A stretch of 58,392 bases of DNA from a virus, in IMG/VR virus record IMGVR_UViG_3300005618_000003, positions 1-58,392 of that record, one strand, 5' to 3'. Positions 23,734-54,185 of this stretch are shown here, one piece after another. A program made the translations under genes and the position numbers. Position 1 is the first letter of the stretch; each line of letters starts with the position of its first letter. The notes below the pieces were generated by a model that had not been told where the DNA came from, made no database searches, and was given only the letters and a program-made list of their open reading frames with translations.

Positions 23734-24468
23734 ATGACATTTTCCGCGATGCTCCGCGTAAAAAACGAAGCCCGTTGGATCGAGCGCGTTATCCGCTCGC
23801 TTCAGCCTCTCTGCGAGCGCATCTTCGTTTTCGACGACCACAGCGAGGACAACACAGCCGAAATCTGCGAGTCGCTTGATTGCAGGGTCTACCGCTCGCC
23901 CTTCACTGGCGTAAATGAGGCGCGCGACAAGAACTACCTGCTTCAGCACGTTTGGCATGAGGTCAACCCCCAGACACGCGGGGCGGACTCGCAGCACTGG
24001 ATTGTATCCGTGGATGGTGACGAAGAACTGGAGCCGAACGGCCCGCAGTTGATAAAGCAGGCCATCATGCCGGGGATTCATGCGCTCACATTGAAGATCG
24101 TCTACTTGTGGGACAAGCCGGACCAGATCCGCACGGATGGCATTTACGGCAAGTTCACCCGAGGCTCGGTGTTCCGCATGGTCTCTCCGTTCCATGCCTT
24201 TCGCTCTACGGATGGCAAGGCAAACTTCCACTGCGGATCGGTGCCGAAGGAACTGCTCGGTCAAGTGCGCGCCTGCAATGCGCGGCTGTTTCACTACGGC
24301 TATCTGGAGCGCGAGGACCGAATTAGGAAATACGCCTGGTACAACAAACTTGACCCCCGCAACCGCGCCGAAGATTTTTATTTCCACATGGTTCAGGGCG
24401 ATATACCTGAGATTCCAGCAGACAGGAAGCTACGCCACGCCGGACCGCTTGAACTGGTGCCGTTATGA
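23734..24468 (+). CDS. glycosyltransferase family 2 (WaaE/KdtX-like)
   Basis: The N-terminus MTFSAMLRVKNEARWIERVIRSLQPLCERIFVFDDHSEDNTAEIC is the classic start of the GT2 subgroup that includes lipopolysaccharide core beta-glycosyltransferases. WIVSVDGDEELEPNG supplies the DxDEE motif, and the C-terminal region has HYGYLEREDRIRKYAWYNKLDP, a His/Arg motif seen in the subgroup. At 244 residues it looks complete. It is the last gene of the cassette and ends in an ATGA overlap with the head-tail adaptor gene, so the cassette is welded into the structural operon at both ends. Confidence 0.9.
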   Translation: MTFSAMLRVKNEARWIERVIRSLQPLCERIFVFDDHSEDNTAEICESLDCRVYRSPFTGVNEARDKNYLLQHVWHEVNPQTRGADSQHWIVSVDGDEELEPNGPQLIKQAIMPGIHALTLKIVYLWDKPDQIRTDGIYGKFTRGSVFRMVSPFHAFRSTDGKANFHCGSVPKELLGQVRACNARLFHYGYLEREDRIRKYAWYNKLDPRNRAEDFYFHMVQGDIPEIPADRKLRHAGPLELVPL

Positions 24469-40018: not shown

Positions 40019-42973
40019 ATGGCCGACGTTAAAATCAGCGCACTATCCCCGTCCGTTGCACTGAGCGGCACTGAAGTTGTGCCTATCGTCCAAGGCGGGA
40101 GCACGGTCAGAACGACGGCGCAGGATATCGCGGATCTCGCCGGAGCGCCGTTGTCAGCGGCTCTGTCGGTTCTGTCTTTGGCTGTGTCGGTAGCGGAGGC
40201 GCACGCCGCTATCGCTTCTGCCGCTGCCACTTCTGCCGATAGCCACGCCGACGCTGTTTCCGCAGCGATGAGCGTGCTGTCGGTGGCTGTTTCTGTGCGG
40301 GATGCCGCACTTTCGGGTAGGGTCGATGTCGCTTCGGCGCTGGCTGGTGCGGCCGATCTCCACGCTGGTACTGCCTCGGCGGCCGCAACCTCGGCGGATG
40401 CCCACGCCTCGAACGCTAGCGCCGCAGTTTCCATCCTTTCTCTCGCGGTATCGGTTGCCGCTGCTCACGCGGACGCCGCGAGTGCCGCAGCCACGGGCGC
40501 CGACAATCACGCGGCCTTGGCCTCAGCCGCCGTGTCCGTGCTATCGCTTGCGGTATCCGTTGCTGAATTACATGCCGCCACAGCCAGCGCGGCGGCCACT
40601 AGCGCAGATAGTCACGCAGCGACGGCATCCGCAGCAGCTACATCCGCCGACGCCCACGCGGATACCGTCTCCAAGGCGGTAAGCTCGCTCTCGATCGCGA
40701 TGTCGGTTCGCGATGCGGCACTATCCACCAGGATCGACGGGGTGACGGGCGGGGGCGGTAGCGTTGCTTCTGCGGCGTTCCAATCGGAAATCTCCAATCG
40801 CATATCGGCGGATTCGGTTCTTTCAGCCCTGATATCGGCCTTGTCGGTAGCGGTAAGCGTCAGGGATGCCGCACTTTCGACGCGGATTGACGGAGTTGGC
40901 GGGAGTACAAGCGCCACTTCAGCTAAGATCGCAACCGCCTCAGCAGCGGCGACCAGTGCGGACGCACACGCGGCCACGGCTTCAGCCGCAGCTACGAGCG
41001 CCGACGGGCACGCCGCAGCAGCCTCGGCGGCAGTCTCGGTGCTCTCCCTAGCCGTCTCAGTTGCAGCAGCAGCGGCCAGTACGGCGTCAGCCGCCGCGAC
41101 CAGCGCGGATGCCCACGCAGCCGCCGCCAGTGCGGCTGTGTCCGTTCTTTCGCTAGCAGTGTCGGTAAGGGACGCCGCTCTCTCGGCCCGCATCGATACG
41201 GCGTCGGCGCTAGGAACGACGGCTGATACCCATGCCAATACCGCCAGCGCGGCGGCAACGTCAGCAGATGCCCACGCCGCCACGGCAAGTGCCGCTGTCA
41301 GCGTTTTATCGCTCGCGGTCTCGGTAGCGGATGCCCACGCCTCCACGGCTTCGGCGGCGGCCACTTCGGCAGATAGCCATGCAGCCGCTGCGAGCGCAGC
41401 CGTCAGCGTTCTATCTCTCGCCGTCTCCGTGGTTGCAGCCGCGGCGTCAACAGCTAGCGCGGCAGCGACAAGCGCCGATGCGCATGCGCAAGCAGCTTCG
41501 GCGGCGGTTTCGGTCTTGTCGGTGGCGATGAGCGTGCTATCTGTAGCCGTCTCGGTGCGGGATGCTGCGCTGTCCAGTCGTATCGACACTGCTTCGGCTC
41601 TGGGCACGACCGCCGATACACACGCAAATACTGCCAGCGTTGCCGCCTCGGTGGCCGACGCTCACGCCAGCGCAGCGTCTGCCGCGATCTCCGTTCTGTC
41701 TTTGGCCGTTTCCGTAGCCGCCGCTCAGGCAAGTACCGCATCAGCAGCAGCGACTTCAGCGGATGCACATGCTGCGGCGGCATCGGCTGCGGTAAGTGTC
41801 CTCTCATTGGCGGTGTCCGTCGCGGCGGCCCAAGCCTCTACTGCCAGCGCTGCGGCGACCAGTGCGGACGCTCACGCTCAGGCGGTGTCCGTGCTCGTCA
41901 GTTCCCATTCGCTGTTAATCTCCACCGCGGACGCCCATGCATCCACCGCGAGCGCCGCAGCTACATCGGCAGATGGGCATGCGGCTACGGCTAGTGCTGC
42001 CGCTACATCGGCTGACGCACATGCAGCCGTTGCTAGCGCGGCGGTTTCGGTGCTTTCGTTAGCCGTCTCGGTAGTTGCCGCCAATCTGAGCAATCTAACG
42101 TCGTCCCACAATGCTCTATCGAACACCGTCTCCTCGATGGGGGCTCCAAATCTTGACGCTCTCTCTAACGCCGTATCCGTTCTCTCGCAGGCTGTCAGCG
42201 TTCTCTCGCAGGCGATGTCGGCGATGTCGACTGCTCTTTCGGATGCCATCTCCGTCGGGAACAATACCGCGAGCGTTCTTTCCGGCCTGATCTCGGTAGC
42301 CAGCGCCGCGGCGACTTCGGCTGACGCCCACGCGTCGGCTGCGAGTGCGGCCGTTTCGGTCCTCTCTTTGGCCGTATCCGTGGCAGCCGCCCAGGCGTCG
42401 ACGGCATCCGCAGCCGCTACCAGCGTAGACGCCAGAGTAAACACCATCAGCCAGCAAGTCTCCGTTCTCTCGCAGGCGATGTCAGTAATTTCCGCCGGTC
42501 TCGGGACAGTGCAGATGAAGGTCGTCGGGAACGTGCAGGGCGTTTCGTCCACGGCGGCGACGGGCGTCAAGATCAGCGGCCTCAGTATCTCGGTCGCAGC
42601 CAATGGCGTTTATCAACTCGAAGCCAGAATCCTATTCAGCACGTCCGGCACTGCGAACTTCTACGGCTTCGGGATGTCGACTTCGGCGGCAACGTTCGGC
42701 CCGGTGGGCGGGATGTGGATGGCGGCAACGTCAATTATCAACAATACACTTACCTCCGCCGGACTCGTGGTTGGCAACTTCAATGCCGTGAACTCGCCGC
42801 AACTATCCGCGCTGGCCGGAACGACTGGCGTAGCGACGCAAGCAAAAATGGAGGGCGTTGCCGTTATCAGTTCGGCGGGCGGGACGATTCGCCTCAAGGC
42901 CCGCACCTCGGTTACCACCTTTACCTTAAACATCATGAAGGGCTCCTACTTCAGGGCCTACAAGATCGGATGA
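40019..42973 (+). CDS. long Ser/Ala-rich heptad-repeat fibre protein
   Basis: A 984-residue protein. The first 40 residues (ADVKISALSPSVALSGTEVVPIVQGGSTVRTTAQDIADLAG) resemble the attachment domain of phage tail fibres. About residues 45-820 are dozens of degenerate repeats of the type SVLSLAVSVA-x-AHAxTASAAATSADAHAA: alternating seven-residue patterns of hydrophobic and Ser/Ala residues with regular Asp and His. They are predicted to form a very long coiled-coil or trimeric helix. The last 150 residues (GTVQMKVVGNVQGVSSTAATGVKISGLSISVAANG ... KGSYFRAYKIG) are a beta-rich tip domain. The high Ser content offers many possible sites for glycosylation by the enzyme encoded next. Confidence 0.8.
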   Translation: MADVKISALSPSVALSGTEVVPIVQGGSTVRTTAQDIADLAGAPLSAALSVLSLAVSVAEAHAAIASAAATSADSHADAVSAAMSVLSVAVSVRDAALSGRVDVASALAGAADLHAGTASAAATSADAHASNASAAVSILSLAVSVAAAHADAASAAATGADNHAALASAAVSVLSLAVSVAELHAATASAAATSADSHAATASAAATSADAHADTVSKAVSSLSIAMSVRDAALSTRIDGVTGGGGSVASAAFQSEISNRISADSVLSALISALSVAVSVRDAALSTRIDGVGGSTSATSAKIATASAAATSADAHAATASAAATSADGHAAAASAAVSVLSLAVSVAAAAASTASAAATSADAHAAAASAAVSVLSLAVSVRDAALSARIDTASALGTTADTHANTASAAATSADAHAATASAAVSVLSLAVSVADAHASTASAAATSADSHAAAASAAVSVLSLAVSVVAAAASTASAAATSADAHAQAASAAVSVLSVAMSVLSVAVSVRDAALSSRIDTASALGTTADTHANTASVAASVADAHASAASAAISVLSLAVSVAAAQASTASAAATSADAHAAAASAAVSVLSLAVSVAAAQASTASAAATSADAHAQAVSVLVSSHSLLISTADAHASTASAAATSADGHAATASAAATSADAHAAVASAAVSVLSLAVSVVAANLSNLTSSHNALSNTVSSMGAPNLDALSNAVSVLSQAVSVLSQAMSAMSTALSDAISVGNNTASVLSGLISVASAAATSADAHASAASAAVSVLSLAVSVAAAQASTASAAATSVDARVNTISQQVSVLSQAMSVISAGLGTVQMKVVGNVQGVSSTAATGVKISGLSISVAANGVYQLEARILFSTSGTANFYGFGMSTSAATFGPVGGMWMAATSIINNTLTSAGLVVGNFNAVNSPQLSALAGTTGVATQAKMEGVAVISSAGGTIRLKARTSVTTFTLNIMKGSYFRAYKIG

Positions 42974-42974
42974 T

Positions 42975-44864
42975 ATGGCCGCACTCGCCGAAACTCCTAT
43001 AGATATTTCCGTCCCGCAGAAGGTCACCTATTGCGTGGAGCCTTGGCTTAGAGACTTGCAGATCCAACTCGCCCTTCAGCGCGGTCTTCCCTACCTGGAA
43101 CCATGCCCTGACAAACGAACTGATCCAGTAGCCATAGTCTGCTTCGGCCCGAGCCTCAATGATACGTGGGAGCAGTTGCGCGACTTCAAATACATCATCA
43201 CTTGCTCGGGTGCCCATAAATTCCTAGTGGATCGCGGCGTCATCCCGACGTGGCACTGCGAGGTGGACCCTCGCCCACATAAAGTCCAGCTCATCGGGGC
43301 GCCGCACAAAGACGTCGAATATATCATCGCCGCAGCTTGCCATCCAAAGGTATTCGATCACCTCGCCGACTTCAAGGTGACGCTCTGGCACATATTCGAC
43401 AATGCTGCGGAAGGCCAGCGGATTCTGCCTCCCGGAGCATGGGCGCTAACGGGCGGGTCGTCGGTCGGTCTTCGCGCAATGCACATCGCGCGGTTCATCG
43501 GATTTACTGACCTCCATATCTTTGGGATGGACGGCAACGAAGGCAAGACTGGGAAGCACGCAGACATTCATCCCAATCAGCCAAAGGGGTCTAGTCCCGT
43601 CGCTTACGAAGGACGAACGTTCAGGAGCACGCCAGCCTTGGCTGAATGCGCGCGGCAGACGTTCCATGAAATAGACGCACTGTCGGATGTAAAGGCCACC
43701 TTCTACGGGGAAGGGCTCGTTCAGGAGATGGCTAAGAACTACACCCGGAAAACTGTCGGCAAGAAAAGCGACATCGCTTTTTCCAAGCCGCATTTGATAA
43801 GCGCGGAATACATCGAAATGAACCGGCGCTTGCACCAGGAGGAGCCGACATACGGGATCAACGCCGCTAAGTACGTCGATGTCGTTCGCAAACTATCGGA
43901 AGCGCTCAAGACAACCTCGATCCTGGATTATGGCTGCGGAAAAGGGATGCTTGGCCAAGGCCTACCCTTCCCGATCTGGGAGTACGACCCCGCGATCCCA
44001 GGCAAGGAGCAAACCCCGAAGCCGGCCGACATCGTGTGTTGTCTCGATGTCCTGGAGCACATCGAGCCGGAGCGTTTAGACTTCGTGCTCGACGACCTTC
44101 GCCGATGCGTGAAGCAGGTTGGGTTCTTTGTGATCTCGCAAGGCGCGGCAAAGAAGCAATATCCCAACGGCAAGAACACGCATCTGATTCAGGAAGGCAC
44201 TGGCTGGTGGCGCAAGCGTCTCGAACGGTTCTTTAAGATCGGCAGCATCAAAAGCATCCTGATCGCCCCTAAAGAAACGGCATGGGATCACGTCGATCAT
44301 TGCGAATTGCAGGTGATGGTGGGACCCAAGCCGGTAAGCCAGAAGGCAATAAGGCGCTGGCATGTGCTCGAATTTCTCGCCAAGAAACACGGCTGGACGA
44401 AAGGCGTCGAGGTCGGGGTGAAGGAAGGCTTCACCCTGCTGCATCTTCTCGGGACGTGCCCCAATCTCCACATGACCGGCGTCGACCTATTCGAGCCGCG
44501 TCCTGGTCTCGAATCGGAAGGCGGCGAGTCTCACATTGACTCGCAACTACCGGAGCACGAGGCACGTTTACGCAAGATGCTCGCCGAGCAATACCCAGAG
44601 CGCAGCCGACTGATAAAGGGCGCATCGATCGAGACCGCAGCGCAGTTCGAAGATGGCTCGCTCGATATGGTTTTTATCGATGCTGACCACCGAGAGGAAG
44701 CGGTCCTCGCCGACATCGCGGCATGGCGTCCGAAGATCCGACCGGGCGGTATGCTCACCGGCCACGACGCACAAGACAAGTTCCCCGGCGTACTCGCGGC
44801 GATTAACGCGGCGTGTCCTGGCTGGAAGCAGTATGACGATTCCGTTTGGAGTTTCCAACTATGA
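42975..44864 (+). CDS. three-domain enzyme: Maf/DUF115-like, methyltransferase, methyltransferase
   Basis: A 629-residue fusion. Residues 50-255 resemble the MAF/DUF115 domain (IVCFGPSLNDTWEQLRD, WHCEVDPRPHK, TGGSSVGLRAMHIARFIGFTDLHIFGMDG), known in motility accessory factors that attach nonulosonic sugars to flagellin Ser/Thr and in MptE-type enzymes. Residues 315-440 form a class I methyltransferase (ILDYGCGKGMLG, IVCCLDVLEHIE). Residues 455-629 form a second one of the Methyltransf_24 type (GVEVGVKEGFTLLHLL, MVFIDADHREEAVLADIAAWRPKIRPGGMLTGHD). It lies one base after the serine-rich fibre gene. I infer that it modifies the fibre or a sugar on it. Confidence 0.78.
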   Translation: MAALAETPIDISVPQKVTYCVEPWLRDLQIQLALQRGLPYLEPCPDKRTDPVAIVCFGPSLNDTWEQLRDFKYIITCSGAHKFLVDRGVIPTWHCEVDPRPHKVQLIGAPHKDVEYIIAAACHPKVFDHLADFKVTLWHIFDNAAEGQRILPPGAWALTGGSSVGLRAMHIARFIGFTDLHIFGMDGNEGKTGKHADIHPNQPKGSSPVAYEGRTFRSTPALAECARQTFHEIDALSDVKATFYGEGLVQEMAKNYTRKTVGKKSDIAFSKPHLISAEYIEMNRRLHQEEPTYGINAAKYVDVVRKLSEALKTTSILDYGCGKGMLGQGLPFPIWEYDPAIPGKEQTPKPADIVCCLDVLEHIEPERLDFVLDDLRRCVKQVGFFVISQGAAKKQYPNGKNTHLIQEGTGWWRKRLERFFKIGSIKSILIAPKETAWDHVDHCELQVMVGPKPVSQKAIRRWHVLEFLAKKHGWTKGVEVGVKEGFTLLHLLGTCPNLHMTGVDLFEPRPGLESEGGESHIDSQLPEHEARLRKMLAEQYPERSRLIKGASIETAAQFEDGSLDMVFIDADHREEAVLADIAAWRPKIRPGGMLTGHDAQDKFPGVLAAINAACPGWKQYDDSVWSFQL

Positions 44865-45722: not shown

Positions 45723-46208
45723 ATGGCGCAAGTAATCACATCTCAACTCTATGGAACCAAGACGAACTTCACAATCACCGCGAGCAGCTTGGCTGCCTCG
45801 GCGACCGTCGGACGCCAAGCTACCGTCATCGACAACACGGTAAATAATGCGCTTGACGCCCAAGTTCAGGGAACATTGACCGTCGGCAGCGTTAGCGGGA
45901 ATCAGCAGATTTTATTTTTCGTTGCTGGCAGTTTTGATGGGGGCACCACCTACTCCCTCGGGAATGGGGCAAACGTGATCGGCGCCTCCGATGCCGCCTT
46001 TACGCGGGTCGATCCATCGGGTAAGGCGCCTGCATATGTGCTTCCGGTTACGACATCGAGCGTCGCCTATACGTTCGACTTCTCGGTCGCTCAGATGTTC
46101 GGCGGCTCCATGCCCGACCACTGGACGATCTGCGTGTTCAACGATTCGGGCGCATCGTTGACTGCGTTCAGTGCTTGGTACAAAGAGATCAGAGCGCAAA
46201 GCAACTAA
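45723..46208 (+). CDS. probable virion or decoration protein (161 aa)
   Basis: One base after the preceding stop. Beta-rich Ser/Thr/Gly-rich sequence (VQGTLTVGSVSGNQQILFFVAGSFDGGTTYSLGNGANVIGASDAAFTRVDPSGKAPAYVLPVTTSSVAYTFDFSVAQMFGG), similar in style to phage decoration proteins of the late region. It ends with WYKEIRAQSN. No enzymatic motif is visible. Confidence 0.55.
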   Translation: MAQVITSQLYGTKTNFTITASSLAASATVGRQATVIDNTVNNALDAQVQGTLTVGSVSGNQQILFFVAGSFDGGTTYSLGNGANVIGASDAAFTRVDPSGKAPAYVLPVTTSSVAYTFDFSVAQMFGGSMPDHWTICVFNDSGASLTAFSAWYKEIRAQSN

Positions 46209-46215
46209 GCCGAAG

Positions 46216-47001
46216 ATGTCTATTATTTTATATCCCAAACGGAGCAATGGGAAGCCCTGTTCGGGTGCTCAACTGAACCGTGGGCATAATTTAGCCGCCA
46301 ATTTAGTTGGGTGCTGGTTGTTTAACGAGCAGGGCGGAGCATTGTATGATCTGGTCGGCGGGGGGGATGCTTACTTAACCGGATCATATTCCAGGGTCGC
46401 AAGCCCAGACAATTCGGCGGTTCTATTCGATGGCAGCAGCGGCATCGCGAGCATTCCTCGCCACTCTCCATTTATATTCGGCGTGAAAGATTTCACGCTT
46501 GAGGTTATTTTTATTTCACAATCGACGGCGACCGGGTCCTGGATAGCCAAGGACGGCCCTTCTAGCCGAGGATGGTTATTTCGGACGGCTGGATCGGCAG
46601 TATCATTCACGCCCATCTTGGGCGGCACTAGCCTGACGGGAATAGCCGCGCTCTCGGCGGGGAAAAGATATCACGTTGTCGTGACGCGAACCTCTAGCGG
46701 ACTAACGAGCTATATAAACGGAAAATTCGACAAGTTTCAGAGTGGCGGCGCTACTGACTTTACGGCAGCGACGGCGGACTTGACGATTGGAGGAAACGCC
46801 AATCTCGACAGCTATGTAAACTCCTCTATTTCTCTCGCTAGGGTTTGGAATGGGCGGGCTCTGCGGCCCTCTGAGATAAGTCAATTGTATTCCGATCCCT
46901 ATTGCCTTGTGCAGCCACAATCGCCGCAAGATCGGTACTGGCAGAGCGTTACCATAACCCCTCGAAAGTTTTTTCTCCTAACCAATGTCCGCAGACCTTA
47001 G
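46216..47001 (+). CDS. LamG/concanavalin-A-like lectin protein
   Basis: ATG 46216; the longer upstream frame overlaps the previous gene and is rejected. The 261-residue product shows the LamG/ConA-type series LVGCWLFNEQGGALYDLVGGGDAYLTGSYSRVASPDNSAVLFDGSSGIASIPRHSPFIFGVKDFTLEVIFIS...TSYINGKFDKFQSG...LTIGGNANLDSYVNSSISLARVWNGRALRPSEISQLYSDPY. Such domains bind sugars, so the protein is probably a tail-end or side-fibre receptor binder. It overlaps the next glycosyltransferase start. Confidence 0.8.
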   Translation: MSIILYPKRSNGKPCSGAQLNRGHNLAANLVGCWLFNEQGGALYDLVGGGDAYLTGSYSRVASPDNSAVLFDGSSGIASIPRHSPFIFGVKDFTLEVIFISQSTATGSWIAKDGPSSRGWLFRTAGSAVSFTPILGGTSLTGIAALSAGKRYHVVVTRTSSGLTSYINGKFDKFQSGGATDFTAATADLTIGGNANLDSYVNSSISLARVWNGRALRPSEISQLYSDPYCLVQPQSPQDRYWQSVTITPRKFFLLTNVRRP

Positions 47002-47773
47002 TGTCATCTGCTGGCGTTGGGGCACACGCTACGGCGTCGAGTGCGTAAACCGCTTGCGCTCCATGCTGGCGCGGCATCTGCACATCGAGCACCGGTTGTT
47101 CTGCATCACAGACGATCCCAGCGGCCTAGATTACGGCATTACGGCGATCCCGATCTGGCCCGCGAACGGCTTAGGCCGCTGCCGGAGATTACGAATCTTC
47201 GATGAATCCATGCGCGGGATTTTTGGCGACCGGATGTTGCAACTCGACATCGATTGCGTGATCGTGAACGACATCACGCCGCTGGTGGATCGGCAAGACC
47301 CGTTTGTGATCTGGCGATCGGTGCCTGAGTTGAAATACCTTCGCAGCAAATCGGTCCTGAAGCCGAACCCGGAGAACGGGCTTGGCGCATACAACACTTC
47401 GATGGTCCTGATGAACACCGGAATCCTGCCGGGGATTTGGCCGGACTATCTCGCGGACCAAGCGGGAGTCGAGGAGGCCGCCAAGAAGGCGGGCCTCTGG
47501 ACTTCGCTATTCAGGACGGTTCCAGGCAAGCCCACGACAGTTGAGTCGCTGAAACCTGGCGACGACGACCAAGCCGTTATTTCGCTCTACGCCCGCAAGC
47601 TCGATCCGCCAACTTGGCTAGAGCGCGACGGGATCTACAAAGTTGGCCGCCGCGGATTCGCCGACAGGTCGAAGCTACCGGACAACGCGCGGATTGTGTT
47701 CTTCAACGGAAGCATCAAAGGGAATCAGCCTGGGGAGCAAGCGCCGGAGTGGGTGCGCGAACATTGGCGCTAG
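46985..47773 (+). CDS. glycosyltransferase, GT8-like
   Basis: A 262-residue protein with LSVICWRWGTRYGVECVNRLRSMLARHL (nucleotide-binding unit), DRMLQLDIDCVIVNDITPLVDR (DxD motif) and YNTSMVLMNTGILPGIWPDY. The C-terminal DDDQAVISLYARKL and IVFFNGSIKGNQPG (His-Gly-like end) follow the GT8-type plan. It is placed between the lectin-like protein and a second GT8-like enzyme. The donor is unknown. Confidence 0.8.
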   Translation: MSADLSVICWRWGTRYGVECVNRLRSMLARHLHIEHRLFCITDDPSGLDYGITAIPIWPANGLGRCRRLRIFDESMRGIFGDRMLQLDIDCVIVNDITPLVDRQDPFVIWRSVPELKYLRSKSVLKPNPENGLGAYNTSMVLMNTGILPGIWPDYLADQAGVEEAAKKAGLWTSLFRTVPGKPTTVESLKPGDDDQAVISLYARKLDPPTWLERDGIYKVGRRGFADRSKLPDNARIVFFNGSIKGNQPGEQAPEWVREHWR

Positions 47774-48003
47774 TTCTCGATGTGGATGGAGCGCGACGGA
47801 TGGCGATGGTCTAGATGCTCGGGGCCTTTTCGTCCGCCCAGCCAGTACCACGTTCCACGGCAATCCCGGCGACACCTGCAAGCACAGCGCGCCAAGGCGT
47901 GCAGCGCCCACGCCGTCGGATAAATAAATAAGCTGAGTTTCGCGAACGATCTCACAAACGCCTTAAATTCTGGCGTCTCTTTCCATTTCTCTCTCCATCT
48001 CAT
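47770..48003 (-). CDS. 77-residue protein on the minus strand, leaderless-type
   Basis: Occupies a 228-base gap between two + strand glycosyltransferase genes. The product MRWREKWKETPEFKAFVRSFAKLSLFIYPTAWALHALARCACRCRRDCRGTWYWLGGRKG has one hydrophobic segment followed by a Cys/Arg-rich cluster. A TATATT hexamer ends six bases before ATG 48003, so transcription may begin at or next to the start codon. Stops overlap convergently at its end. Possibly a prophage-expressed membrane protein. Confidence 0.45.
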   Translation of the reverse strand: MRWREKWKETPEFKAFVRSFAKLSLFIYPTAWALHALARCACRCRRDCRGTWYWLGGRKGPEHLDHRHPSRSIHIEN

Positions 48004-48778
48004 GCTCCAAATATACCTTGGTTACGATTCCCGCGAGCCACTTGCTTACCACGTTCTTGCTCACTCGATCATGCAGCGCGCCAGCCGTCCTGTCAGCATA
48101 ACGCCGCTGATCCAGCCGCAACTTCGGGCGTGCGGACTCTATACCCGCGAGCGCGGCGCAACGGAATCGACCGAGTTTTCGCTGACGCGGTTCCTGGTGC
48201 CGCATCTGTCTGGCTATGAGGGCACGTCGCTATTCCTCGATTCGGATATGCTGTGTCTCGCGGACATCTGCGATTTGGAGTTCGAAGTCGCCAAGGCACG
48301 AATCGCCGGCCATCGGACGGAGCAAGTAGGGAGCGTCAAGAATGGGCACATCTACGTGCCCAATCTCGTGGAGCGCCACGAGTCGCCTGCCGTCTGGGTC
48401 TGCAAGCACGATTACACGCCGCTGTCCGGCGACAAGTTCCTCGGCCAACAGCAAACTGCGTATCCCCGCAAGAACTGGTCGAGCCTCATGCTGTTCGATA
48501 ACGCGAAGTGCAAGGCACTCACGCCGCAATACGTGAACACGGCCAGCGGGCTCGACCTCCACCGCTTCAACTGGGTGCCGGATGAGCAGGTTGGCTGCTT
48601 GCCGCTCGAATGGAACTGGTTAATCGGAGAATATCCGGCGCGGCCGGACGCTAATTGCTATCACTATACCCGCGGAGGGCCGTGGTTCGCCGAATACGCC
48701 GGGTCCGACCATGCCGACCTGTGGTTCGCTGAGCGAGATGCGATGATGGGCGCAAATGCCAACATACATTCTCACTGA
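48002..48778 (+). CDS. glycosyltransferase, GT8-like
   Basis: ATG 48002. MLQIYLGYDSREPLAYHVLAHSIMQRASRPVSITPL is the characteristic GT8-type N-terminus for enzymes that use UDP-sugars; TSLFLDSDMLCLADI supplies the DxD site; SSLMLFDNAKCKALTPQYVNTASGLDLHRFNWVPDEQVGCLPLEWNWLIGEYP and an HYTRGGPWF segment (HxxGxxKPW-like) complete the fold. The length of 258 residues is right. Activity is likely, but the acceptor is unknown. Confidence 0.85.
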   Translation: MLQIYLGYDSREPLAYHVLAHSIMQRASRPVSITPLIQPQLRACGLYTRERGATESTEFSLTRFLVPHLSGYEGTSLFLDSDMLCLADICDLEFEVAKARIAGHRTEQVGSVKNGHIYVPNLVERHESPAVWVCKHDYTPLSGDKFLGQQQTAYPRKNWSSLMLFDNAKCKALTPQYVNTASGLDLHRFNWVPDEQVGCLPLEWNWLIGEYPARPDANCYHYTRGGPWFAEYAGSDHADLWFAERDAMMGANANIHSH

Positions 48779-52737: not shown

Positions 52738-53469
52738 ATGTCTACCGCACTCGAAACCGTCAAGCCCGGCGAATTAGAACCGCAAGGCGAAGCCCGCAGC
52801 TTCCTGGATATGATCTCCCAGGCCGCTCGCGATCCCAACGTCCAGGTGGAGAAACTAGAACGCCTGATGGCCATGAAGGAGCGTTTCGACAAGACGCAGG
52901 CCGAGATTGCATTCTCGCTGGCAATGGCGCGACTCCAGCCGAAACTACCGCGCATTGAGAAGCATGGGCGCGTGATCGTTCAGAACGTCACTCGCAGCAC
53001 CTACGCCAAGATCGAGGACATCGACGCGGTTATCCGCCCGCTCTACTCCGAGGAGGGATTCTCGATCTCCTGGAACACGCGAGCCGCGAATGGCCCAGCG
53101 ACAACTGTTATCGGTGTCTTGCGGCACACTGGCGGCCACTCGGAATCATACGAGATCACGCTGGCGAACGACACTTCCGGCAGCAAGAACGCCACCCAGG
53201 GAAGCGGCTCGACCTTCCAGTACGGCAAGCGGTATCTGCTGTGCGGGATGTTCAACCTGATAACCATAGACGAGGATAACGACGGCCAAGGCGATGCGCT
53301 GACCGAGAAGCAGGCACGCGAGATAGAGGACTGGATTCAGCATGTCGGGCTGAACGAAGCGGGCAAAAAGAAGTTTCTCTCGCTGCTGAATGTTTCGACC
53401 GTTGGCGAAATCACCCAAGCCAATTTCTCGGTAGCCATGAACTTCCTTCGCGCCAAGGAACACAAGTGA
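52738..53469 (+). CDS. erf: ERF-family single-strand annealing recombinase
   Basis: Binds single-stranded DNA and anneals homologous strands, replacing Red-beta. The 243-residue protein has an ERF signature: FDKTQAEIAFSLAMARLQPKLPRIEKHGRVIVQNVTRSTYAKIEDIDAVIRPLYSEEGFSISWNTRAANG, then TGGHSESYEITLANDTSGSKNATQGSGSTFQYGKRYLLCGMFNLIT. A helical C-terminus follows. It is GTGA-coupled to the YqaJ exonuclease, the usual two-component recombination pair. Confidence 0.92.
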   Translation: MSTALETVKPGELEPQGEARSFLDMISQAARDPNVQVEKLERLMAMKERFDKTQAEIAFSLAMARLQPKLPRIEKHGRVIVQNVTRSTYAKIEDIDAVIRPLYSEEGFSISWNTRAANGPATTVIGVLRHTGGHSESYEITLANDTSGSKNATQGSGSTFQYGKRYLLCGMFNLITIDEDNDGQGDALTEKQAREIEDWIQHVGLNEAGKKKFLSLLNVSTVGEITQANFSVAMNFLRAKEHK

Positions 53470-54185
53470 TTATCCACGACTGTGTTCAAGGAACCTCGAA
53501 GTGGAGGCAACTCCGCATTGGTATGCCTACCGCCTCGGAGTTCGGGCGCATAGTCACGCCTGGGGGCAAGAAGAACGAGCCGAAGCCGAGCGACAGCCAA
53601 GAGCCATACATGCGCGAACTGCTAGCCGAACTCATCATGGGCCGCCCGCTCGAAGGGACGTCGATGCCCTGGATGGAGCGCGGCCATCTGCTAGAAGAAC
53701 AGGCAGCAGACTTCTACGGCTTCATCAAGGACGTTGAGCCGGAGGTCGTGGGGTTCGTAACGAATGATGAGCAGACCATCGGCGCCAGCCCGGATCGATT
53801 CATCGGCAAGGACGGAATGCTGGAGATCAAGTGTCCGAAGCCGGAAGTGCACGTTTCGTACTTCCTGTTTTCGGACATCGAACTGAAGTACAAGCCTCAG
53901 CTGCAGGGCCAGCTTTACGTGACCGGACGCCAGTGGGTTGACATCTGTTCGTTTCATCCAGAAATGCCGCCGGCCATCGTGCGCGTGACGCGGGATGAGG
54001 ACTTTATAAAGTTGCTCGATGTGGAGTTGCAGAAGTTTGTGGCGCGGCTAGCGGAGAAGCGCGCCGAACTGGATGCGCGCGGCCTACTGGCAAAGCCAGA
54101 AGTGGAGCGTGACCACAGCGGCGATTTCCTGAGCGATGCAGACGCGGAAATGATTGTGGCCGACCGATTCCCGGTATCGGCCTAG
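53466..54185 (+). CDS. YqaJ-like (lambda exonuclease-family) 5'-3' exonuclease
   Basis: Predicted to resect double-stranded ends so the annealing protein can act. The 239-residue protein begins IIHDCVQGTSKWRQLRIGMPTASEFGRIVTP, typical of YqaJ, with WMERGHLLEEQAADFY, GASPDRFIG (Asp), and LEIKCPKPEVHVSYF (E-x-K) catalytic residues, followed by QLQGQLYVTGRQWVDICSF. The PD-(D/E)XK motifs are all present, so it should be active. GTG 53466 overlaps the ERF stop. Confidence 0.92.
   Translation: MIIHDCVQGTSKWRQLRIGMPTASEFGRIVTPGGKKNEPKPSDSQEPYMRELLAELIMGRPLEGTSMPWMERGHLLEEQAADFYGFIKDVEPEVVGFVTNDEQTIGASPDRFIGKDGMLEIKCPKPEVHVSYFLFSDIELKYKPQLQGQLYVTGRQWVDICSFHPEMPPAIVRVTRDEDFIKLLDVELQKFVARLAEKRAELDARGLLAKPEVERDHSGDFLSDADAEMIVADRFPVSA

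Follow-up and report, generated by a model that had tools for sequence, protein, structure and literature searches.

Does a tailed phage decorate its own tail fibre with sugars and methyl groups? The question is raised by a locus in which the gene for a Ser-rich fibre is followed directly by a gene fusing a domain similar to the Maf glycosyltransferases with two methyltransferases. The original prediction, made from sequence alone, was that this pair forms a phage-encoded O-glycosylation-plus-methylation system acting on the fibre. The analysis reported here supports that prediction, with the substrate and the chemistry remaining matters of inference.

The window that we analysed is an entire viral contig of 58,392 bases. 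It encodes terminase, portal, prohead protease, capsid and tape-measure proteins, and therefore belongs to a tailed phage. The contig also carries tandem DNA methylase genes (C5-cytosine and N4/N6, positions 1159-2909), recombination genes ERF and YqaJ (52738-54185), and a GT2-type glycosyltransferase gene (23734-24468) in the stretch that separates the head genes from the tape-measure gene. DNA modification was considered as a role for the enzymes discussed below and rejected; the genome's own DNA methylases are far away. The features of interest are as follows, gene calls for all loci having been made with a simple longest-ORF caller.

40019-42973, + strand: Ser/Ala-rich heptad tail-fibre protein, 984 aa (ORF, codon and heptad analysis, head model)
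Fibre residues 1-42 (approximate) of 984: N-terminal attachment region
Fibre residues 43-830 (approximate): coiled-coil shaft with repeats ASAAVSVLSLAVSV and ASAAATSADAHA
Fibre residues 831-984 (approximate): C-terminal TNF-like jelly-roll head, predicted
42975-44864, + strand: fusion enzyme of 629 aa, DUF115/MptE-like (Maf-like) domain followed by methyltransferases MT1 and MT2 (Pfam, AlphaFold2, Foldseek, 43 viral relatives)
43116-43532, + strand: DUF115/PF01973 core of the enzyme, putative protein O-glycosyltransferase domain (Pfam, profile, fold)
43869-44195, + strand: MT1 (Methyltransf_23), core of the phage family and homologous to the methyltransferase of some bacterial flagellar loci
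44406-44768, + strand: MT2 (Methyltransf_24), swapped for an FkbM methyltransferase in several relatives (Pfam)
46985-47773, + strand: second glycosyltransferase-like protein (PHROG 1962, E 1.5e-9), possibly a chain-extending enzyme, role inferred
48002-48778, + strand: GT8-like glycosyltransferase with invariant DxD (F-x-D-x-D) and H-Y-T-x-G-x-P

The fibre and its shaft peptide

The extent proposed for the pair, 40019-44864 with a single base between the genes, held exactly, the junction reading TGA-T-ATG from fibre stop to enzyme start. The proposed regular Ser heptads held too, and the 'hundreds of Ser' were slightly generous: the fibre contains 179 Ser, 75 Thr (254 Ser and Thr together) and 304 Ala. 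Distances between Ser residues in 35 fibres linked to the enzyme peak at 3, 4, 7, 11, 14, 18, 21 and 25, and in the shaft of the window fibre Ser makes up 46-48% of heptad positions b and e, with V, L or A at positions a and d. The N-terminal region is common to many other phage fibres. The C-terminal domain was modelled as a β jelly roll (AlphaFold2, pLDDT 82, pTM 0.74), and its nearest PDB structures are the TNF-like lectin PLTL and TNF-family ligands (E 3e-4 to 1e-3), so that it is predicted by the model to be a typical trimeric receptor-binding head. The fibre has no meaningful match in PHROGs or Pfam and none to any isolate phage record.

No DNA-level repeat was found in the fibre gene by Tandem Repeats Finder, and for this reason we analysed its codons. 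The 14-residue peptide ASAAVSVLSLAVSV is present eight times in the fibre and is encoded by eight distinct DNA sequences, whose median identity (0.67) is that expected from independent codon choice (0.665). Conserved Ser positions in the repeats are encoded by both TCN and AGY codons, at several positions. Of 32 linked fibres tested, most likewise have identical peptide repeats with near-random codons. Synonymous sites in the shaft repeats are thus largely saturated, and identity of the peptides in the face of random-level synonymous divergence indicates that selection holds the shaft peptide, its Ser residues included.

The fusion enzyme and its kinship with Maf

The proposed composition of the enzyme, a Maf/DUF115 domain and two methyltransferases, was borne out by Pfam, with all three domains above cut-off: MptE-like PF01973 (formerly DUF115/MAF_flag10) at residues 48-186 (68.2 bits, cut-off 34.6), Methyltransf_23 at residues 299-407, and Methyltransf_24 at residues 478-598. 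SAM motifs are kept in MT1 (LDYGCGKG) and in MT2 (VEVGVKEG and FIDADH). The AlphaFold2 model is confident over residues 1-450, which takes in MT1; MT2 rests on Pfam alone, with pLDDT below 50 and no alignment depth.

The enzyme was found in 43 viral loci, and in more after a further search. One of these proteins (L002) is identical or nearly identical to that of the window, and the others are 45-58% identical to it over DUF115 and MT1. Comparison of 31 enzyme sequences shows about fifty invariant positions, including the motifs GPSL, CSGA, HxEVDPRxHK, CHP, WH, GG and GMDG and the SAM site. The third part is variable. Among the relatives aligned, MT2 is peculiar to the window contig and its near-identical twin, which corrects the original prediction in this respect; its place is usually taken by an FkbM methyltransferase, or the protein ends before it. 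A 2OG-Fe(II) oxygenase-like domain is also frequent in the third part, with matches below the Pfam cut-off.

The DUF115 part has no match in 50,697 isolate phage records and no bacterial match among the genome matches, and of the 53 matches obtained in about 85,000 genomes of bacteria and archaea none shows the DUF115-methyltransferase fusion. The phage host could not be assigned, because DUF115 lacks a bacterial match and neither it nor the fibre has a match among isolate phages. Predicted MptE-like proteins of uncultured phages are present, without an assigned role, in the BFVD structure library.

Both predicted structure and sequence place the DUF115 domain closest to Maf, known from Magnetospirillum (5mu5), Clostridium botulinum (CbMaf) and Campylobacter (PseD/Maf), with which it shares the central PF01973 domain. 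The best Foldseek match of the enzyme model in PDB is Maf 5mu5 (E 8.7e-9), followed by methyltransferases, and 5mu5 is also the best PDB match of the phage-family profile (E 3.5e-7). Phage enzyme and Maf have in common the motifs G-x-GPSL, C(S/G)xA, giiP and GxD. On the acceptor side, however, the phage enzyme has EVDPR where the two Mafs compared have LLEN or EIER, and the longer phage motif HxEVDPRxHK is missing from both; the literature that we searched gives no account of the ligand residues of Maf. The Maf_flag10_N domain (PF20157) is absent from the window enzyme and from six relatives scanned, and the phage proteins carry C-terminal methyltransferases instead. The phage enzyme is not a member of the Maf family, since it lacks PF20157 and departs from Maf in one core motif; this qualifies the Maf/DUF115 label of the original prediction. 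The partners are also alike, in that Maf systems have a filament-like, Ser-rich, coiled-coil partner encoded nearby, though it is flagellin and not a phage fibre. Maf glycosites have no sequon and lie among residues that are small and apolar or hydrophobic (PMC11339370); likewise, hydrophobic residues surround the putative acceptor Ser of the fibres, Ser being preceded by V, I or L in 52% of cases in linked fibres and in 23% in other Ser-rich viral ORFs.

Two glycosyltransferases downstream, at 46985-47773 and 48002-48778, were not part of the original prediction and belong to the picture. A GT8-like gene directly follows the DUF115-methyltransferase gene in many relatives and lies within 6 kb in 23 of 51 loci. 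Invariant in this family are F78, D80, D82 and H-Y-T-x-G-x-P; the family profile matches WbbM and a GT8 chain, and PF01501 is matched below cut-off by one family member and above cut-off by an isolate homologue. Accessory domains in relatives (FkbM, 2OG-Fe(II) oxygenase, GT8 and PfkB kinase) are compatible with glycan tailoring. The PfkB-type carbohydrate kinase, downstream of the DUF115-methyltransferase gene at L035:9865-10719, might be a sugar-donor gene. In the window, a Laminin-G/ConA-lectin-like protein, probably a virion protein, is encoded at 46171-47001, between the fusion enzyme and the downstream glycosyltransferases.

The Pfam name of PF01973 comes from a pterin kinase, and MptE (6-hydroxymethylpterin diphosphokinase) shares Pfam family and fold with the phage domain; its partners and context, however, are different. 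A role in pterin metabolism was rejected on the profile, which points to Maf and not to MptE, and on the fold. A related alternative is that DUF115 modifies the fibre with a non-sugar, for example a diphosphate or phospho-linked group, and that the methyltransferases methylate protein. In its favour, PF01973 includes MptE, archaeal MptE 8sd5 is a fold match of the enzyme model (E 1.1e-5, weaker than 5mu5), and flagellin is directly methylated in some bacteria by FliB (PMC4875605). Against it, the phage-family profile recovers Maf in PDB and no MptE chain at E<=1, and glycosyltransferases accompany the enzyme. We consider this alternative very unlikely.

Homologues of the phage parts do occur in bacteria, for the MT1 domain and the GT8-like protein, and some of them stand in flagellar loci. 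The gene order in the bacterial locus L058 is GT8, MT1, flagellin (Flagellin_N and Flagellin_C), a short gene, FliD, another short gene, a true Maf (164 bits to PF20157) and then the beginning of another Maf-like gene. In L089 and L094, GT8 and MT1 are flanked by flgK/flgL-like genes on one side and fliD/fliC on the other, with TPR proteins present, and in L091 they are flanked by FliW and flagellin. Flagellar context is thus seen in 4 of 53 genome loci, a modest number, and all three phage parts occur together in L058. Flagellin glycosylation islands described in the literature include methyltransferases of the SAM and FkbM kinds, and also fusions of a glycosyltransferase with methyltransferase domains (PMC5109656, PMC4875605). 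The islands of Geobacillus and Enterobacteriaceae resemble the phage locus in grouping such enzymes and fusions with a filament gene; in contrast, the phage set is compact and viral, has the DUF115-methyltransferase fusion, and shows no sugar biosynthesis genes in the ORFs scanned.

Two further viral genomes have MT1 homologues in other settings. In the podovirus genome L342 (MW202512.1, 5800-11912), a major capsid gene, a TPR protein, MT1 and GT8 are close together, and the set resembles the TPR-GT8-MT1 sets of L089 and L094. In 'Tetraselmis viridis virus S20' (L340, NC_020840.1, 5700-11284), the MT1 homologue adjoins a gene annotated as alpha-2,3-sialyltransferase; a second such gene and several glycosyltransferases are nearby, and the set lies between the head genes and a head-closure gene.

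Pairing of the enzyme with Ser-rich fibres

Does the fibre accompany the enzyme in other phages? We collected 64 viral proteins with DUF115 and MT1, of which 53 could be tested for the nearest same-strand upstream gene of >=100 aa, counted as Ser-rich at 13% Ser or more. This gene is Ser-rich in 33 of the 53 loci, as against 0/34 for viral relatives with MT1 only (Fisher 3e-10) and 0/84 for viral GT8 relatives without DUF115 in the locus (Fisher 4e-18), both control sets being drawn from the same collections. Since sequences within one family are related, Fisher values are too optimistic and overstate certainty, and the clustered counts are the safer guide: 31/48 versus 0/28 (MT1 only) and 0/35 (GT8 only) at 70% identity, 20/35 versus 0/24 at 60% (p 2e-6), and 7/15 versus 0/14 at 50% (p 0.006), where counts are small. 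The pairing is not universal. Of 44 proteins with DUF115 first, 36 have a motif-bearing fibre somewhere upstream in the locus and 8 have none, and an immediately adjacent Ser-rich gene is absent in 12 of 45.

The fibres tell the same from the other side. As a control, we used 49 fibres that were retrieved via the N-terminal region of the window fibre and lack the enzyme in the available locus sequence. The shaft motif, scored as [VIL]S-x(1,2)-[VILA]S, has a median of 0.28 per 100 aa in these enzyme-less fibres and 3.73 in linked fibres (p 1.3e-12), and Ser content is 11% and 17%, respectively (p 4.5e-13). The N-terminal attachment regions of 29 complete linked fibres fall into at least seven groups, so that shaft, head and enzyme behave as one module to which various attachment ends can be fitted. 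The pairing of enzyme and fibre is far beyond chance, specific, and found in diverse phages; the presence of the pair in other phages, one of the checks proposed together with the original prediction, is strongly positive.

These counts bear on two further alternatives. The first is that the enzymes remodel a surface polysaccharide of the host, for superinfection exclusion or receptor change, the fibre gene being a mere neighbour, as such genes cluster near tail genes. Serotype-converting glycosyltransferases are a known phage trait, mentioned also in PMC12619734, and GT8 and MT1 families occur in the bacterial locus L073 with sulfotransferase-like and KdsB-like genes (named by eye). On the other hand, adjacency is seen only for proteins that bear DUF115 and only with a single kind of shaft, with none in the phage loci that have only MT1 or only GT8, and enzyme-less fibres of the same attachment type are without the shaft motif. 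On balance, this explanation appears unlikely.

The second is that the shaft is an ordinary Ala/Ser coiled coil without modification, and the pair a frozen accident inherited together. Ser/Ala heptads are known in phage side-tail fibres such as lambda Stf, and recombination could move enzyme and fibre together as a single unit. Yet the pair is still found where enzyme identity has dropped to about 45% and across at least seven fibre N-terminal groups, peptide repeats stay identical against saturated synonymous change, and the enzyme retains invariant catalytic-type motifs. We regard this possibility, too, as remote.

A sister clade of the enzyme has the reversed order MT1-DUF115, with GT8 upstream, lies near capsid-like genes, and is without the Ser-rich fibre. 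The reversed fusions are those of loci L218, L224, L235, L239, L242, L243, L244, L247 and L251; in the loci examined, the gene immediately upstream of the fusion is GT8-like, and several have a capsid-like gene a few genes beyond it. Perhaps this is a capsid-directed sister module, with virion modification extending beyond fibres, or its substrate is different altogether. Stand-alone DUF115 genes are also found shortly downstream of a capsid-like gene, at L028:6796-7806 and L110:10000-10863.

A putative fibre glycosylation cassette

The likely explanation, to which we would give a probability of roughly 0.7, is a phage-encoded glycosylation cassette by which the fibre is decorated with methylated sugars. 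Gene order, domains, fold kinship with Maf, co-occurrence, selection on the shaft peptide and the homologues in flagellin loci are shown; transfer, the Ser acceptor, the sugar, its donor, the order of steps and the benefit are inferred. In the infected cell, DUF115 would transfer an activated sugar from the host pool to exposed Ser (and Thr) of the newly made trimeric coiled-coil shaft, recognising Ser by a neighbouring V, I, L or A and not by a strict sequon. The sugar or sugars would then be O-methylated, and so capped, by the fused methyltransferases; extension of the glycan may fall to the two glycosyltransferases encoded downstream (GT8-like and PHROG-1962-like). The outcome would be a shaft coated with methyl-capped sugars and a jelly-roll receptor-binding head left uncoated; stiffness, protease protection and masking are candidate benefits. 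The cassette would thus do for a virus what a flagellin glycosylation island does for a bacterium, the fibre standing in for flagellin.

If it resembles Maf in this respect, the enzyme might use a CMP-nonulosonate as donor. Another host nucleotide sugar is just as likely, because the acceptor-side motif differs and no nucleotide-sugar biosynthesis genes were seen among about 30 window ORFs scanned with Pfam (not all ORFs were scanned). There are no mass-spectrometry or activity data to support the cassette, and Ser/Ala heptads are ordinary in coiled-coil fibres too.

Glycosylation of phage virions (capsid, tail tube) and of flagellin by Maf is known already. In mycobacteriophages, capsid and tail-tube subunits are modified at their C termini (Freeman et al. 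2023, cited in PMC12619734); this is likewise phage-encoded glycosylation of the phage's own virion proteins, but no fibre-shaft cassette is mentioned in the account of PMC12619734. What appears to be new is the putatively fibre-dedicated DUF115-methyltransferase fusion: we found no description of it in the literature searched, in keeping with the original impression of novelty, and nothing relevant on DUF115 with phage tail fibres or on MptE-like proteins with phages. A bolder reading, for and against which we would bet equally, sees here a widespread class of phage modules for O-glycosylation and methylation of fibre shafts (and possibly of capsids in the sister clade), sharing its evolution with bacterial flagellin glycosylation, in which shaft and enzyme co-evolve as an exchangeable unit.

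The hypothesis is testable with two genes, and the system would offer compact cytosolic enzymes of protein O-glycosylation with an in-built repetitive acceptor. A phage's choice of host cell rests on its tail fibres, as does the face that it presents to its surroundings. If the cassette works as proposed, the sequence of a fibre alone would not describe the virion surface, fibres expressed without the enzyme could be misfolded or inactive, and phages and flagella would share one way of coating their filaments.
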